From the NCBI GenBank assembly GCA_020073545.1, contig JAIQEZ010000016.1:1-51690 (forward strand): 51,690 nt of DNA, given 5' to 3'. The notes under the pieces were generated by a model, which worked only from the letters and a program-made list of their open reading frames with translations, had not been told where the DNA came from and made no database searches. This stretch comes from Terriglobia bacterium. GTDB taxonomy: Bacteria > Acidobacteriota > Terriglobia > UBA7540. Position numbers and translations under genes: made by a program. Below, in pieces: positions 17,223 through 26,101 of the stretch (the first letter of the stretch is position 1; every line of letters starts with the position of its first letter).

Positions 17223-17357
17223 CCGCCGCGCCATCGCGGGCGGGGGGAACCGAAAGTTAGTAGAAGAGACGTGCCGGTATTGGCATCTTAGCAACCCTGT
17301 ATCAGGAGACGACATCCAACCGCCTTGAAACAACTGAACAGCAACGGATGGTGCATC

Positions 17358-18194
17358 ATGAAAGCAATCACCCTCTCACTTCTGGCGCTGGCACTCACGC
17401 TTCCGCTTCTCGCCCAATCACCGGGAGTTCCACCTGGGGCCCCAAGTCAAGCTCCGCCCACGGCGCAGCCACAGACACAACCACCCGGTCCGCCTGCGGC
17501 GCCGGTCGCGCCGACTGCCCCGGCGGTCGCTCCTGACAACTCCAAGATTGTGGTGCCTGCGGAAACGACCATTCCTCTGGTTCTCGTGAACACGGTCAAC
17601 ACGCGCACGGCCTACGTGGGTCAGGCCATTTATTGCGAAACGATCTTCCCCATCACTGTGGGCAACCGCCTGGTGATTCCCAAGGGCAGTTCCGTGAAAG
17701 GCGCGGTGACGCAGGTGGTCCAGCCCGGTCGCGTCAAGGGCCGGGCGCAAATCGGTCTGCGGTTTGAAGAGCTCATCCTTCCCAACGGCACCACGGTCCC
17801 CTTGCGCGCCACGCTTTCGGGCTTCGGGAGCAGAGGAAAAGAGGACTTCAAGCCGAACGAAGGGAAAATCAAAGGGGAGTCATCCAAAGGCGAGGACGCT
17901 GGAAAGGTTGTGCAATCGACTGTGACGGGCGCCGAACTCGGAACCATCACCGGGGCCGTGAGGGGAAGTCCCGGCGTCGGACTGGGCATCGGCAGTGCAG
18001 CGGGAGCGGCAGGTGGATTAATCTGGGTTTTGGCCAGCCGCGGAAAGGATGCGGTACTGCCCCGTGGCACGAGCCTGGAGCTGCAACTCACCGTACCGCT
18101 GACTCTCAATCGCGACGAACTCGATCCGCCGTCCCGTTATGACCGGGGCCCGACGCTGCCTGGCCGCGAATACGAGTACGGGCCGGAACGTTAG
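17358..18194 (+). CDS. Secreted protein with TrbI/VirB10-like beta-barrel segment
   Basis: A 278-residue protein: signal peptide (MKAITLSLLALALTLPLLAQ), a Pro-rich linker (about 22-60), then 'VVPAETTIPLVLVNTVNTRTAYVGQAIYCETIFPI' (segments of it) and 'RLVIPKGSSVKGAVTQV', the pattern seen in TrbI/VirB10 C-terminal barrels. A glycine-rich stretch (200-225, TGAVRGSPGVGLGIGSAAGA) resembles a glycine-zipper membrane segment. No other conjugation or secretion genes are nearby, so it is more likely a stand-alone envelope protein. ATG 17358 is preferred over an in-frame TTG at 17325 because the signal peptide begins there. Confidence 0.7.
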   Translation: MKAITLSLLALALTLPLLAQSPGVPPGAPSQAPPTAQPQTQPPGPPAAPVAPTAPAVAPDNSKIVVPAETTIPLVLVNTVNTRTAYVGQAIYCETIFPITVGNRLVIPKGSSVKGAVTQVVQPGRVKGRAQIGLRFEELILPNGTTVPLRATLSGFGSRGKEDFKPNEGKIKGESSKGEDAGKVVQSTVTGAELGTITGAVRGSPGVGLGIGSAAGAAGGLIWVLASRGKDAVLPRGTSLELQLTVPLTLNRDELDPPSRYDRGPTLPGREYEYGPER

Positions 18195-18864: not shown

Positions 18865-19776
18865 CTAGACGGGCAGACTCCAACCCTTGGCGCCGCGATT
18901 GTCCGCTGCCAGCAGGTAGACCTGGGCCCGCACCTGCTTTTCGTTAAGCGTGTCTTGGATGAGTTCGCCGATGGCGGCGCTGTTCTCCCGCGCAAAAGCC
19001 AGAATGGAAGGGCCGGCGCCGCTCAGGCAGACGCCCAGTAAATCCGGGTGCCTCAACGCGAGCACGTCCGAAAGGCCCGGTACCAGGGGAGCGCGGTAGG
19101 ACTGATGCCAGCGGTCGTCGAAAAAGGTGCGATGCAGTTCCGCTCGGCCGGAAAAAAGCTGGGCGGTCAGCATCGCCGCGCGCTGCAAATTGTGGATGGC
19201 GTCAGCTCGGGAATACTGGTCGGGCAGAACCTTGCGGGCTTCTTCGGTCGGCAAAGCGTAGTCCGGCACGACCAGAACCAGTCCAAGCGGCTCGGGGACC
19301 GGGCACGAATAGGTCAGAACGCGGCCGGCGGATTGAGTGGCAACCGTGAACCCGCCGTGCCAGGCCGCCGCCACGTTGTCCGGGTGGCCTTCCCGTTCCG
19401 TGGCAAGCGAAACAAGTTCCTCGTCAAACATCACGCGGTCAGCCAGGATGTGACTCGCGGCGAGCGCGCCGACGATCGCGGCGGCGCTCGAACCAACGCC
19501 TACACCCACTGGAATCTGATTTTCTATTTCGAGTTCAAACCCGCGGGTCTTGCCCCAGCTCCGGAGCGTCTCCTGCAAAGTGCGCGCGATGAGATTGTTC
19601 GAACCCGTACAAACCCGGTCGGCATGGATACCGCTATAACGAACCACACTCGCGTCATCGCCACGCAGCGTGACGTGGATGTTGGCGTAAAGGCTCAAGG
19701 CAATCGCGCCACAATCAAAGAGACAGCCGAGGTTGGCGCAAGTAGCCGGCACACGAACTGACACGCGCTCACTCAT
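18865..19776 (-). CDS. thrB: Homoserine kinase
   Basis: ThrB phosphorylates homoserine, committing it to threonine. The 303-residue GHMP kinase has 'VSVRVPATCANLGCLFDCGA' (N-terminal substrate site), the ATP loop 'PVGVGVGSSAAAIVG' and the C-terminal 'GVCLSGAGPSILAF'. The canonical loop is P-x-G-x-GLGSSAA; here it reads GVGSSAA, still compatible. ATG 19776 starts at MSERVSVRVP; a longer form from 19818 is possible but adds non-conserved residues. It follows metW by about 170 bases on the same strand. Confidence 0.92.
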   Translation of the reverse strand: MSERVSVRVPATCANLGCLFDCGAIALSLYANIHVTLRGDDASVVRYSGIHADRVCTGSNNLIARTLQETLRSWGKTRGFELEIENQIPVGVGVGSSAAAIVGALAASHILADRVMFDEELVSLATEREGHPDNVAAAWHGGFTVATQSAGRVLTYSCPVPEPLGLVLVVPDYALPTEEARKVLPDQYSRADAIHNLQRAAMLTAQLFSGRAELHRTFFDDRWHQSYRAPLVPGLSDVLALRHPDLLGVCLSGAGPSILAFARENSAAIGELIQDTLNEKQVRAQVYLLAADNRGAKGWSLPV

Positions 19777-19946: not shown

Positions 19947-20633
19947 TCAGCGGGGCGTGCCGGATTTGGCGGGCGGCGGGTCTCCCTCCTCCAAAACAAA
20001 AATCGCCGAATCGGCCAGAAGGTTGGGGAGGAACCGAACCACGATACATCGCCCGGAAGCGGAGGTTCGGAGGGGAATTTCCTGGAGCACTGTCAATTCG
20101 GCTTGGCGACAGAAATCGCGGAAGTCGATGATGGTGGTCAGGTGAATGTTCAGGGTCTCGTACCATTCGTAGGGTAGCTTTTCGGTCTTGGGCATGCGGC
20201 CTCCGAAGAAATGCTGCCAACGCACCGGCCAGTGTGCGAAGTTCGGAAAGCTCACGATGCAACGCTTGCTCACTCTCGCCATCTCCCGGATCAGGAACAT
20301 GGGACGATGCAAAACCTGAATGGTATTCGTGAGGATAACGTAATCGATGGATTTGTCGGGGTAGTCGGCCAGCCCTTCGTCCAAATCGCCGTGATGAACG
20401 TTGAACAAACCCTTGGCGACACAAGATTGGATGCAGGCGTCGGAGAGCTCAATTCCCTCGGCGCGAACCTTCTTCATGACCTTCAGGGCCAGCAGCAAAT
20501 CGCCCTCGCCGCAGCCGAGGTCCATAACGCGCGTGCCCTCCGGGATCAGGTCGATAATCGTCCGGTGGTCAGGAGTCAGACGCACCACCGTGCCGGCGTC
20601 ATCGAGTCGAATTTCTTCGGCAAGCCCGCCCAT
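19947..20633 (-). CDS. metW: Methionine biosynthesis protein MetW
   Basis: A 228-residue SAM-binding methyltransferase-fold protein. Motif I is 'VMDLGCGEGDLLLAL' (about 36-50), followed by 'VHHGDLDEGLADYPDKSIDYVILTNTIQ', 'FPNFAHWPVRWQ' and 'PYEWYETLNIH', which are MetW-specific. MetW works together with MetX to acylate homoserine in many bacteria that have this gene pair; its own reaction is not settled. It starts 3 bases after the metX stop, so the two are co-translated. The C-terminal 25 residues are a Pro-rich tail. Confidence 0.93.
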   Translation of the reverse strand: MGGLAEEIRLDDAGTVVRLTPDHRTIIDLIPEGTRVMDLGCGEGDLLLALKVMKKVRAEGIELSDACIQSCVAKGLFNVHHGDLDEGLADYPDKSIDYVILTNTIQVLHRPMFLIREMARVSKRCIVSFPNFAHWPVRWQHFFGGRMPKTEKLPYEWYETLNIHLTTIIDFRDFCRQAELTVLQEIPLRTSASGRCIVVRFLPNLLADSAIFVLEEGDPPPAKSGTPR

Positions 20634-20636
20634 GCG

Positions 20637-21779
20637 CTAAGCAGCTCCCCTCCGGCCGTGGCTCAGGAAATTGGTGATGAGGGAACTCAGTTGCTCCGAC
20701 TCCAGCAGGAAAGCATCGTGCCCGTAATCCGTCTGAATTTCCGTGTAGATGGCTTGCGCGCCGACGCGCCGCAAGGCGCTGACGATTTCCTTGGACTGAT
20801 ACGATGGAAACAGCCAGTCCGACGAAAACGAAATCACCAGGAACTTCGCCTTCACGCCGGAAAAGGCCTGTTCCAGTGTCCCATAAGGCTGCGCGAGATC
20901 GAAATAATCCATTGCTTTCGAGATATAGAGATAGGAATTGGCGTCAAACCGATTGACGAAATTATCTCCCTTGTACTGCAAATAGCTTTCCACCTGAAAA
21001 TCCGCCAGAAAGTTGTACCCGTACTCCGTCTTGTCTTGCAGTTTGCGGCCGAATTTCTGGTGCATGGACCGCTCGGAAAGATAAGTGATGTGCCCGATCA
21101 TCCGCGCAATGGCCAGGCCCCGGCGCGGGATGGGCTTCCCATAGTAGTCGCCTTCCTTCCAATGAGGATCCGACTGGATGGCCTGCCGGCCCACCTCGTC
21201 AAACGCGATCGCCTGCGCCGACAGCTTGCTGGTGGTGGCAATGGGAATGGCCAGCCGAACCCTGTCCGGGTAGCTCACCACCCACTGCAGCACCTGCATC
21301 CCACCCATCGAGCCGCCCACTACACAGAGCAATTGGTTAATTCCCAGATGGTCAATCAACTCTCTCTGGGTATTCACCATGTCGCGGATGGTGACAATGG
21401 GAAAGCTCAGCCCATAGGGACGGCCCGTCTGCGGGTTGACCGAGCTCGGTCCCGTCGAGCCCTTGCAGCCCCCGATGACGTTGGAGCAAATCACGAAGTA
21501 TTGCCGCGTGTCGAAGGCTTTGCCCGGACCAATCATGATGTCCCACCAGCCGGGCTGACGCTCGCCGGGCTGATTGTACCCGGCGGCATGGGCGTTTCCA
21601 GAGAGGGCATGGAGAATGAGCACGGCGTTGTCCTTGGCCGCGCTCAACTCTCCGTAAGTCTCGTAGGCCAAAGTGATCGGCCCGAGACTTCGCCCGCACT
21701 CCAGGAGCATCTCCTGGGGCGGCTCGGCAAAGGTGAGGTGCTGCGTTTTAACGATCCCAACCGAACCTGGGTCTCCCAT
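20637..21779 (-). CDS. metX: Homoserine O-acetyltransferase
   Basis: MetX transfers an acyl group to homoserine, the entry step to methionine. The 380-residue alpha/beta-hydrolase has the nucleophile Ser157 in '[10 protein letters not shown]', the triad Asp in 'SFSSDWLFP' and the His in '[10 protein letters not shown]'. '[11 protein letters not shown]' and '[12 protein letters not shown]' are family signatures. Sequence alone does not fully settle acetyl- versus succinyl-CoA use. The start is ATG 21779 with GGGAGGAAAG 10 bases upstream. It sits between metY and metW. Confidence 0.95.
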
Positions 21780-21864: not shown

Positions 21865-23193
<1,329 letters not shown>

Positions 23194-23338: not shown

Positions 23339-24580
23339 TCACGCGGTGGCCGCCGTACTCAAAAACTGCTCGTCAAAATCTTCAACCTTGGGCCGGATGA
23401 GCACGCCCTCCGCCAGCCGCCCTTGCAGCGCGCCCAGGGTCTTCAGCCCGTTGCCGGTGATCGCGAGTACAAGGGATTCCTCGGGATTCAGGCGGCCTTG
23501 GCGGATCAGCTTGCGCGCCACGGCGATCGTCACACCGCCGGCGGTTTCCGCAAAAATACCCTCGGTTTCGGCGAGCAGGCAGATGCCGTCGACGATTTCC
23601 TGGTCTTCCACATCCTCGCCCGCTCCGCCGCTCGCGAGAATGGTCTTCACGGCAAAAATGCCGTCCGCCGGGTTGCCGATGGCCAGCGACTTGGCGATCG
23701 TACGAGGTTTCTGGGGCTCAATCTCCGTCGTGCCGCGCTTGGCCGCGGTGGTAATCGGCGAGCAGCCCGCCGCCTGCGCGCCGAAAAAGCGGGTTCGGGC
23801 CGGTGCAACCCAGGCGAGTTTCTTCAGTTCTTCAAAGGCCTTGTTGACCTTGGTGATGAGAGAACCGCCGGCCATGGGAATCACGATGTTCTGCGGCAGG
23901 CGCCAGCCGAGTTGCTCGGCGATTTCATATCCGAGGGTCTTCGACCCTTCGGAGTAGTAAGAGCGCAGGTTCACGTTGACCATGCCCCAGGAATGCTTCT
24001 GAGCGATCTCCGCGCACAGCCGATTCACTTGATCGTAGTTGCCCTGCACCTTCACGAGCGTTGCGCCGTAAACCTGCGTGCCGATGATTTTCTCCGGCTC
24101 GAGCTCGGCGGGAACAAAGATGAAAGTCTTGAAGCCGCCGGCCGCAGCTTGCGCCGCGAGGGCATTCGCCAGGTTCCCCGTCGAGGAGCATCCCACCGTG
24201 TCGAATCCGAACTCGTGTGCCTTCGAGAGCGCCACCGCCACCACGCGGTCCTTGAAGGAAAGTGTGGGGTGGTTGACGGCGTCGTTCTTCACGTAGACTT
24301 CGCGCGCTCCGAGCGCCGCACCCAGACGCGGCGCGGCCACGAGCGGCGTGAATCCCGTCTGGTGGCCCACCCAGGGCTCGCCCGCGACCGGCAGCAATTC
24401 CCGATAACGCCACATGTTGGGAGGACGCGAGGCGAGGTCTTCGCGCCGCAGATCCGCCCACAGCTTGCCGTAGTCATAGACGACTTCCAGCGGCGCCCAA
24501 CACTCCTCGCAGGCGGCGATGGGATCGAGCGGGTACGTTCGCTCGCATTCCCGGCACTTCAGGCGAATCGCGTAACTCAC
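23339..24580 (-). CDS. thrC: Threonine synthase
   Basis: ThrC converts phosphohomoserine to threonine. The 413-residue protein has PLP-Lys110 in 'HPTLSFKDR', the 'VGCSSTGNLANALAAQAA' loop that binds the PLP phosphate, and an N-terminal zinc-ribbon-like module with C9-x2-C12 and C24-x2-C27. The latter is common in this thrC subtype. The GTG at 24580 is chosen because AAAGGGAGG lies 5 bases upstream; an in-frame GTG at 24598 would swallow that site. It is the first gene behind the SAM riboswitch at 24710-24818. Confidence 0.93.
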   Translation of the reverse strand: MSYAIRLKCRECERTYPLDPIAACEECWAPLEVVYDYGKLWADLRREDLASRPPNMWRYRELLPVAGEPWVGHQTGFTPLVAAPRLGAALGAREVYVKNDAVNHPTLSFKDRVVAVALSKAHEFGFDTVGCSSTGNLANALAAQAAAGGFKTFIFVPAELEPEKIIGTQVYGATLVKVQGNYDQVNRLCAEIAQKHSWGMVNVNLRSYYSEGSKTLGYEIAEQLGWRLPQNIVIPMAGGSLITKVNKAFEELKKLAWVAPARTRFFGAQAAGCSPITTAAKRGTTEIEPQKPRTIAKSLAIGNPADGIFAVKTILASGGAGEDVEDQEIVDGICLLAETEGIFAETAGGVTIAVARKLIRQGRLNPEESLVLAITGNGLKTLGALQGRLAEGVLIRPKVEDFDEQFLSTAATA

Positions 24581-24658
24581 AAGTCCTCCCTTTGTCACCT
24601 GAGTGGCCCGGGAATGTCAGGGGGAGAAGAATGAAACGTTCGGGAAGAGGCAGAAACT

Positions 24659-24685
24659 AAAAAACCTCCTCCGGGTGGGAAGAGG
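24659..24685 (-). terminator. Intrinsic terminator of the SAM riboswitch
   Basis: On the minus strand, CCTCTTCC (24678-24685) pairs with GGAGGAGG (24665-24672) across the loop CACCC: eight base pairs, one of them G-U. Six U residues follow (24659-24664). The 5' strand CCTCTT can instead pair with GAGAGG of the aptamer's P1 3' arm, which gives a classic antiterminator. SAM binding would lock P1 and leave the terminator free to form. Confidence 0.9.
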
Positions 24686-24709
24686 CTCTTTGAAGACCTA
24701 GCGGCCCCC

Positions 24710-24818
24710 TCTCATCTCCCCCATACCGGGTGGGAATTGGCACCTGACCCCGCCATTCTGACTGGCGGGCGGTTGTCGTGGCGTCACTGGGCCCGTCCCT
24801 CGGCCACTCTAGATGAGA
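24710..24818 (-). promoter_or_regulatory. SAM-I (S-box) riboswitch aptamer
   Basis: Read on the minus strand this region carries the S-box conserved core in order: P1 5' arm TCTCATCT, AGAGTGGCCGAGGGA, GGCCCAGTGACGCC, GACAACC, a variable P3 stem, GGTGCCAATTCC, GGGGGAGATGAGA. P1 is eight perfect pairs (24811-24818 with 24710-24717). All expected landmarks (GAGGGA, GGCCC, CAACC, GGTGCCAATTCC) are present, so this is a confident call. It lies about 130 bases upstream of thrC and, with the terminator at 24659-24685, should switch off the thrC-metY-metX-metW-thrB transcript when SAM is high. Confidence 0.95.
24749..24772 (-). repeat. Palindrome forming the riboswitch P3 stem
   Basis: CCGCC-AGTCAGAATGGCGG on the minus strand is 16 of 20 identical to the core of the 25-base repeat at 13217-13241 and 42851-42875. 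In the aptamer it occupies the variable P3 helix. Confidence 0.55.
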
Positions 24819-24835
24819 TTCAGGGTTACTGAATC
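24817..24835. promoter_or_regulatory. Perfect 7-bp dyad at the riboswitch transcript start region
   Basis: GATTCAG-GGTTA-CTGAATC is a perfect inverted repeat just upstream of, and overlapping by two bases, the aptamer P1 arm. The surrounding 24830-24865 is AT-rich and should hold the promoter. It could be an operator or an extra 5' hairpin. No regulator is assigned. Confidence 0.45.
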
Positions 24836-25003
24836 AAATATTCAATTGTCGCAAATCATCCTAGAGGAATGCCCCGCGCGTGTCAATATTTTTTCTGCGC
24901 ACAAATTCCACGGGTTGGCCAGAAATCTCCGTTGTGCGGTTTGCCGCCGCGTGTTCCCCGGACACACGCGGATATCTTGATGCCCCTGTATCGCGGTGTT
25001 AAC

Positions 25004-26101
25004 ATGGAAAGAAACGGGCATGAAATGGATTCTGTGAAGCAGAGTGGCAATCTCCTCGGGCTCAACCTTGCGGAGCTGGAAGATTTCGCGGTGAGTTATG
25101 GCCAACCTCGATATCGGGGTCGGCAGCTCTACCACGGGATCTACGCCCGCCGCGTTCGAGACTTTGGCGGGTTCACCGACCTCAACCGGGAATTCCGCGA
25201 ATCGCTATCCTCTCTTCATCAGATCACCTACCCGGAAGTTCAGCGTGAATTCCGTTCGCACGATGGCTCCGTCCGCTACCTGTTCCGCGTCGGGGACGGG
25301 AATTCCATCGAGACCGTCTCGATGCCGGAGGAAAACCGTACGACTCTCTGCCTGTCGAGCCAGGTCGGCTGCGCGCTGGATTGCCGCTTTTGTTTCACCG
25401 CACTTCTCGGCGGGAAACGAAACCTCACGGCGGGCGAGATGATCGGCCAAGTGCTGGCCGTGGCGGCTGCCGAGAGCCTCGCGCGCACGGCCCGGCTCAA
25501 CTTGGTTTTCATGGGAATGGGTGAGCCCTTGCTGAACCTGCCTCAGGTCCTGAAGGCCGTCAAAATCCTCGCCGATTCGAAGGGTGTGGGTGTTGCGCTC
25601 CGGCGCATCACGGTTTCGACCGTCGGCATCACCCCGCGCATCGAGGAGCTGGCGCGCGAGCCGAGGCGTCCCAAGCTGGCGCTTTCGCTCAATGCCTCCA
25701 GCGAGGAGCAACGCAGCGCCCTGATGCCCATTAACAAGAAGTACCCGCTGGCCGAACTGCTCCGTGTCTGCCGCGCCTACCCTCTGCGCCCGTGGGAGCG
25801 TCTGACTTTCGAATACGTGTTGCTGGAAGGGTGCAATGATTCTGACGCCGACGCGCGCCGCGTTGCCGACCTCCTGAGGGGCCTGCGTGCCAAGGTCAAC
25901 CTGATTCCCTACAATTCCGGCCCCGAGCTTCCCTATCGCTCGCCTCCCTTCGAGCGCGTGCTGGCGTTCCAACAGATCCTCACAGATCATCGCATTCCGG
26001 CGTTCATCCGACTTTCGCGAGGCCAGGACATCCGTGCCGCCTGCGGCCAGCTCAGCCTCGAAGGCTTGCGGCAGAGCGCTCTTCCTGCCTCCGCGTCGTA
26101 G
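25004..26101 (+). CDS. rlmN: Dual-specificity rRNA/tRNA methyltransferase RlmN
   Basis: RlmN uses radical SAM chemistry to methylate C2 of A2503 in 23S rRNA and A37 in some tRNAs. The protein has the radical SAM cysteines C123-x3-C127-x2-C130 (CALDCRFC), 'LVFMGMGEPLLN', 'RITVSTVGI', 'LALSLNA' and the C-terminal catalytic Cys347 in 'QDIRAACGQL', which forms the methylated Cys pair with one in the core. ATG 25004 gives 365 residues; ATG 25025 is also possible. The open frame runs to 24869 without family similarity. It is divergent from the SAM-riboswitch transcript. Confidence 0.93.
   Translation: MERNGHEMDSVKQSGNLLGLNLAELEDFAVSYGQPRYRGRQLYHGIYARRVRDFGGFTDLNREFRESLSSLHQITYPEVQREFRSHDGSVRYLFRVGDGNSIETVSMPEENRTTLCLSSQVGCALDCRFCFTALLGGKRNLTAGEMIGQVLAVAAAESLARTARLNLVFMGMGEPLLNLPQVLKAVKILADSKGVGVALRRITVSTVGITPRIEELAREPRRPKLALSLNASSEEQRSALMPINKKYPLAELLRVCRAYPLRPWERLTFEYVLLEGCNDSDADARRVADLLRGLRAKVNLIPYNSGPELPYRSPPFERVLAFQQILTDHRIPAFIRLSRGQDIRAACGQLSLEGLRQSALPASAS

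Follow-up and report, generated by a model that had tools for sequence, protein, structure and literature searches.

SAM-I (S-box) riboswitches are on record as regulators of methionine and sulfur genes, and in Bacillota also of hom (PMC12452182). The contig analyzed here, a 51,690-nt stretch of DNA from a Terriglobia bacterium that we refer to in its whole length as the window, raises the question of why such an element would lead an operon whose first gene is annotated as threonine synthase. The original prediction for this locus took the annotation at face value and proposed that both outlets of homoserine fall together when SAM is high. In the following sections we describe the regulatory RNA, the identity of its leading target gene (denoted ThrC*), the genomic context of this gene in related and distant bacteria, and a metabolic role that would make its control by SAM an ordinary one. 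The features of the window considered in this analysis are as follows:

24858..24886, minus strand: sigma-70-like promoter TTGACA-17-TAGGAT (10/12 consensus match only)
24709..24819, minus strand: SAM-I (S-box) riboswitch aptamer (RF00162, 73.2 bits)
24659..24685, minus strand: intrinsic terminator with an 8-bp stem, a 5-nt loop and U6 (letters checked)
23339..24580, minus strand: ThrC*, a ThrC-fold PLP enzyme annotated as threonine synthase, here proposed to be an O-phosphohomoserine-dependent homocysteine synthase
21865..23148, minus strand: metY, O-acetylhomoserine sulfhydrylase (homocysteine synthase; NF006096, 728.6 bits, cut-off 726)
20637..21779, minus strand: metX, homoserine O-acetyltransferase (NF001209, 543.8 bits, cut-off 331)
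19947..20633, minus strand: metW (TIGR02081, PF07021)
18865..19776, minus strand: thrB, homoserine kinase, likely start ATG 19776 (profile scores)

SAM-I riboswitch and attenuator upstream of the operon

The covariance search with cmscan identified a match to RF00162 on the minus strand at 24819-24709 (73.2 bits against a gathering threshold of 44.4, E=2.5e-15) that covers the model in full length (positions 1-108), confirming the complete S-box core with a perfect 8-bp P1 that had been read from the letters. The P1 helix is formed by UCUCAUCU (24818-24811) and AGAUGAGA (24717-24710), with 8/8 perfect pairs. The attenuator likewise agrees with the original prediction: the terminator stem arms CCUCUUCC (24685-24678) and GGAGGAGG (24672-24665) form eight pairs including one G-U, enclose the loop CACCC and are followed by six U residues (24664-24659), and the GAGAGG stretch of the P1 3' strand (24713-24708) is complementary to CCUCUU (CCTCTT in the DNA) of the terminator 5' arm (24685-24680). 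The promoter-like site with 10/12 matches is located 38 nt upstream of the aptamer, and a scan for sigma-70-type sites on the minus strand revealed none between the terminator and thrC. By genome search, this riboswitch is the only SAM-I element of the window genome. The divergently transcribed gene rlmN (24869-26101, plus strand) encodes a radical-SAM rRNA methyltransferase; its longest ORF reaches into the promoter of the riboswitch, so its true start is probably located further in.

Terminators, defined by at least 7 pairs and a U-tract, were detected in 34 of 44 homologous leaders, compared to 1.3 expected from dinucleotide shuffles; the 10 leaders in which none was detected may work differently. 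Most homologous leaders are characterized by appreciable nascent-RNA pairing between the terminator 5' arm and the P1 3' strand; this pairing is weaker in the window, where the predicted antiterminator of the nascent fold amounts to 1.6 expected pairs. Based on these sequence features, the window element is a genuine SAM-I riboswitch that most likely acts as a transcriptional OFF switch, as its arrangement of P1, antiterminator and terminator indicates. At low SAM, the P1 3' strand would pair with the terminator 5' arm and transcription would go on; when SAM is bound, P1 would be closed, and the terminator would form and switch the operon off. A translational platform was set aside because the terminators are conserved across the leaders, and an inverted (ON) switch, which the odd regulatory logic had raised, receives no support from the leader layout.

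Profile scores confirmed the predicted gene order thrC-metY-metX-metW-thrB, with all genes on the minus strand and the first of them thrC-like. One correction applies: the likely start of ThrC* is GTG 24580, which is placed behind the Shine-Dalgarno sequence GGGAGGA (24590-24584) and matches the starts of its homologs, in place of the start of the longest ORF at 24598. No homoserine kinase was found in the genome other than the one encoded by thrB, the last gene of the cluster. A 9/12 promoter-like site at 19834-19805, in itself weak evidence, lies ahead of its likely start. The product of a plus-strand ORF beside thrB (17325-18194) resembles TrbI/VirB10 with a score that barely reaches the Pfam threshold (35.2 vs. 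35 bits).

The leading gene encodes a probable ThrC paralog

ThrC* is annotated as threonine synthase because it passes the TIGR00260 model (267.2 bits, cut-off 167.1); its score against NF006050 (293.9 bits) is slightly under the cut-off of 303. The protein has a common fold with solved threonine synthases (PDB 1uim, 6cgq, 2zsj) at ~30-36% identity and keeps the catalytic-lysine motif SFKD. Its predicted structure, of low confidence in parts around the active site, is closest to threonine synthases and allows no further functional discrimination. However, a motif comparison that took in 119 ThrC* sequences revealed other letters at 4/4 active-site motifs of the solved enzymes: PTGSFKDRG(M) is replaced by PTLSFKDRVV, STGNT by STGNL, EGQK by EGSK (within EGSKT), and GNAGN by AGGSL, with small variants among ThrC* sequences. 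Unlike threonine synthases, ThrC* also possesses an N-terminal region with four invariant Cys residues. In the maximum-likelihood tree, the ThrC* proteins constitute one clade (support 100/100), outside of which are the Thermus and Bacillus threonine synthases of known structure.

The canonical motifs are kept in canonical paralogs, one of which is encoded in the window genome itself (C121:634-1746), displays PTGSFKD, STGNT, EGQKT and the GN(L)GN loop, and also falls outside the ThrC* clade. Its gene comes after the apparent C-terminal end of an aspartokinase gene, and in three relatives an aspartokinase-like gene is located immediately upstream of canonical ThrC. Judging by motifs and phylogeny, ThrC* is probably a distinct ThrC-fold paralog and not the threonine synthase of the cell; thus the part of the original prediction that named the first gene threonine synthase is probably wrong, given the canonical ThrC on C121 and the placement of ThrC* in a separate, carrier-linked clade. 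A third ThrC-like family (L075 2508-3695, G000:C102, and relatives) matches the NF006050 'threonine synthase' model at 583 bits; its motifs PSAGNAGG, EGKKT and GGGTG are unlike those of solved threonine synthases, and it may also be misnamed.

Riboswitch targets in related genomes and other phyla

The thrC-led arrangement recurs when the gene order downstream of S-boxes is compared in related genomes. SAM-I elements occur in 41 of 61 genomes of the same class, at 44 loci, of which 37-38 (in at least 34 genomes) run straight into a ThrC* ortholog with 55-87% identity; counted by genome, SAM-I precedes ThrC* in 34 of the 61. Most of these riboswitch-ThrC* operons are without met genes. In the 80%-complete assembly of one genome (G006, locus L065), the riboswitch leads directly into metY-metX-metW and ThrC* is missing, which looks like an exchange of one homocysteine route for another under a common switch. 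A covariance model was derived from 34 leaders and used to scan 80 loci from other genomes and phyla; it found SAM-I upstream of ThrC* in 33 of them, in 30 cases within about 400 nt; other sequence or genes intervene in L102, L117 and L167. The lineages combining SAM-I with ThrC* include Verrucomicrobiota, Kiritimatiellota, Methylomirabilota, Nitrospira, Binatota and deltaproteobacterial lineages. Near other ThrC paralogs, nine stretches contained neither a riboswitch nor a carrier.

Some relatives carry SAM-I copies with other targets: a second copy precedes SufS-ThiF-CysK in G016 (L062), and further ones precede NifS-CysK-CysE in G025 (L074) and a cystathionine-gamma-synthase-like gene in G049. 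Extra riboswitches ahead of cysteine desulfurase genes are seen in L062, L074 and L073 (G056). These loci suggest that sulfur mobilization and cysteine synthesis are under SAM control in the same class, and because SAM-I also precedes cysteine-synthesis genes, SAM control alone cannot separate methionine from cysteine functions.

Sulfur carrier genes and the neighborhood of ThrC*

In many relatives, a ThiS-family (PF02597) gene of about 90-120 codons is located between ThrC* and thrB, and its product bears ...IPAIAGG, a Gly-Gly motif, at or near the C-terminus. Among 80 ThrC* loci that were taken from public genomes and represent many phyla, a ThiS/CysO-like carrier gene lies downstream of ThrC* in 72, within 600 nt in 67. 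We take the carrier sequence and its C-terminal AGG motif to resemble CysO of Mycobacterium tuberculosis. Genes for a ThiF-type E1, a JAB peptidase, a NIL domain or the homoserine pathway are often found nearby: E1 (ThiF/MoeB) occurs in many ThrC* loci, together with asd in L032 and L033; JAB was assigned by Pfam in L101 and by inspection in L119; and thrB accompanies ThrC* in 25 same-class loci. Nitrospirota loci have ThrC* and canonical thrC side by side, as in L101, with the order hom-TusA-ThiF-type E1-JAB-ThrC*-ThiS-NIL-canonical thrC and a proposed homoserine kinase (TIGR02535) nearby. No carrier adjoins ThrC* in some genomes of the same family, including that of the window, in which the carrier gene sits on contig C231 alongside cysM and genes resembling E1-rhodanese and cysE; nor does a carrier gene occur near ThrC* in the Hydrogenobacter (Aquificota) locus L160.

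Next to ThrC*, a small NIL domain is found repeatedly, either on its own or as a fusion with the carrier (L101 7629-7865, L119 7544-7783, L113 and, fused, L102), assigned by Pfam PF09383 in L101 and similar by inspection elsewhere. This domain could serve in sensing or binding; NIL domains occur also in the DUF39 homocysteine pathway (PMC5764234).

Distribution of ThrC* and other methionine biosynthesis genes

Among 149 Acidobacteriota genomes with at least 90% completeness, ThrC* is present in 39, MetX in 34 and MetA in 11. Co-occurrence of ThrC* with MetX or MetA is limited to 3/149 genomes (Fisher p=2e-4, a value that relatedness inflates, the genomes not being independent samples), of which two have MetX (the window genome and G168) and one has MetA. 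In the family f10, 12 genomes have ThrC* only, three have MetX only, one has neither and none has both. Most ThrC* genomes are without MetX and their loci without MetY, the exceptions being the window, G010 and a few others. ThrC*, MetX and MetA are all absent from 68/149 of these near-complete genomes; therefore the anticorrelation is an incomplete account, and another route is possible. MetA was rejected as the missing acyltransferase in view of its low count and single co-occurrence with ThrC*, and the HcyBio/DUF39 route, sought in 61 same-class relatives, was absent from all of them. A homocysteine methyltransferase domain was found in 40/41 genomes and PF01053 enzymes in all genomes checked but one; an O-phosphohomoserine-using cystathionine synthase of the latter family could supply homocysteine instead.

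Proposed function of ThrC* and alternative readings

Threonine synthase and a gamma-replacing enzyme can have the first half of the PLP-dependent reaction on O-phosphohomoserine in common, in which loss of phosphate gives a beta,gamma-unsaturated intermediate. Attack of sulfur at C-gamma would then yield homocysteine, as opposed to attack of water at C-beta, which yields threonine. We propose that ThrC* takes the O-phosphohomoserine made by ThrB and swaps its phosphate for sulfur, with the thiocarboxylate of the ThiS/CysO-type carrier as the putative sulfur donor. The carrier would be charged by a ThiF/MoeB E1 and a cysteine desulfurase, and in some loci a JAB peptidase would service it as well; SAM-I in turn controls some of the E1 and desulfurase genes. 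In most relatives, the switch would drive ThrC*, often together with the carrier and ThrB, in genomes lacking MetX; in the window lineage, metY-metX-metW would have joined the operon, placing two homocysteine routes under one SAM switch. ThrC* is possibly redundant in the window genome, because metX-metY are present and the carrier is encoded elsewhere. The sequences themselves show the riboswitch with its terminator, the order of the genes, the separate clade with its divergent motifs, the link to the carrier and the avoidance of MetX/MetA, whereas the in vivo response to SAM and the substrate, sulfur donor and product of ThrC* are inferred. Taken as a whole, a SAM-I OFF switch controlling a homocysteine synthase that uses O-phosphohomoserine and carrier sulfur is the best explanation and a likely one.

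If ThrC* forms homocysteine, its repression by SAM is ordinary methionine feedback, and the seemingly paradoxical control of threonine synthesis by SAM disappears. The proposed joint fall of both homoserine outlets would mostly reduce to this feedback; it stands insofar as the only thrB found ends the cluster, so that the O-phosphohomoserine supply for threonine could also fall with SAM, unless thrB has its own promoter. That ThrC* is nevertheless a true threonine synthase, with SAM repressing both outlets, seems very unlikely to us: the TIGR00260 score above the cut-off, the solved threonine synthases as nearest structures and the thrB gene in the cluster agree with it, but the same genome encodes a canonical ThrC with all hallmark motifs, directly preceded in three relatives by an aspartokinase-like gene, canonical thrC adjoins ThrC* in Nitrospirota loci, and this reading would not account for the link to the carrier, the association with SAM-I across phyla or the avoidance of genomes with MetX/MetA.

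Two further readings keep ThrC* within sulfur metabolism. As a carrier-dependent cysteine synthase acting like CysM/CysO on phosphoserine, it would be SAM-controlled within sulfur assimilation, in keeping with the CysO-like carriers and JAB peptidase that partner the actinobacterial cysteine synthase (PMC1779556) and with SAM-I ahead of SufS-ThiF-CysK or NifS-CysK-CysE in relatives. We consider this improbable, since the same genome or locus encodes CysM/CysK separately, in one case with a carrier of its own, the companions of ThrC* are thrB, hom, asd or canonical thrC and not serine genes, and ThrC* avoids MetX/MetA genomes. It is similarly doubtful that ThrC* converts O-phosphohomoserine to another product (e.g., to cystathionine with cysteine), or uses free sulfide to make homocysteine, with the carrier serving a neighboring function; the Hydrogenobacter locus and the same-family genomes, including the window's, with no carrier beside ThrC* would fit, but a carrier after ThrC* in 72/80 loci across phyla is hard to explain without a common reaction.

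The preferred reading, in its general form that ThrC* together with a ThiS-type carrier constitutes a widespread and undescribed homocysteine synthase on O-phosphohomoserine, which fills a methionine gap in many phyla and whose true pathway is revealed by SAM-I, appears reasonably probable. At least one homocysteine pathway has been listed as undiscovered, with Aquifex, Pyrolobus and Acidimicrobium named (Price et al., 2018; PMC5764234), and ThrC* is a concrete candidate for such a route. No earlier description of a ThrC paralog as homocysteine synthase was found in the openly accessible literature, subscription journals being mostly outside this search. If correct, the proposal would close this gap for numerous members of the Acidobacteriota, Verrucomicrobiota, Nitrospirota and other groups, possibly including Aquificota, and would remove false predictions of methionine auxotrophy for abundant soil bacteria. 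It would also place the branch point at O-phosphohomoserine as in plants, but with another enzyme and sulfur source. The regulatory RNA exposes a likely database misannotation, in which a match to the threonine synthase model is apparently a methionine-pathway enzyme in many phyla.

Comparison with known systems

As an RNA, the window element shares with SAM-I (RF00162) the full-length covariance match, the invariant core and the P1/antiterminator/terminator layout, and shows no difference; only its leading target gene, ThrC*, is unusual. With protein-thiocarboxylate-dependent methionine biosynthesis, the ThrC* loci have in common the ThiS-like carrier and ThiF-type E1, the JAB peptidase in some loci and, as proposed, a homocysteine-forming PLP enzyme; the carrier with its C-terminal GG is encoded beside ThrC* in relatives and is not adjacent to it in the window. 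The acceptor enzyme in Wolinella is reportedly MetY with O-acetylhomoserine. Instead of MetY and an acylhomoserine, the loci described here combine a ThrC paralog with ThrB, implying O-phosphohomoserine as the acceptor. The CysO-CysM-Mec+ gene cluster is the corresponding type for cysteine synthesis in M. tuberculosis (PMC1779556), and the ThrC* loci differ from it in that their PLP enzyme belongs to the ThrC clade and their operon partners are homoserine genes.
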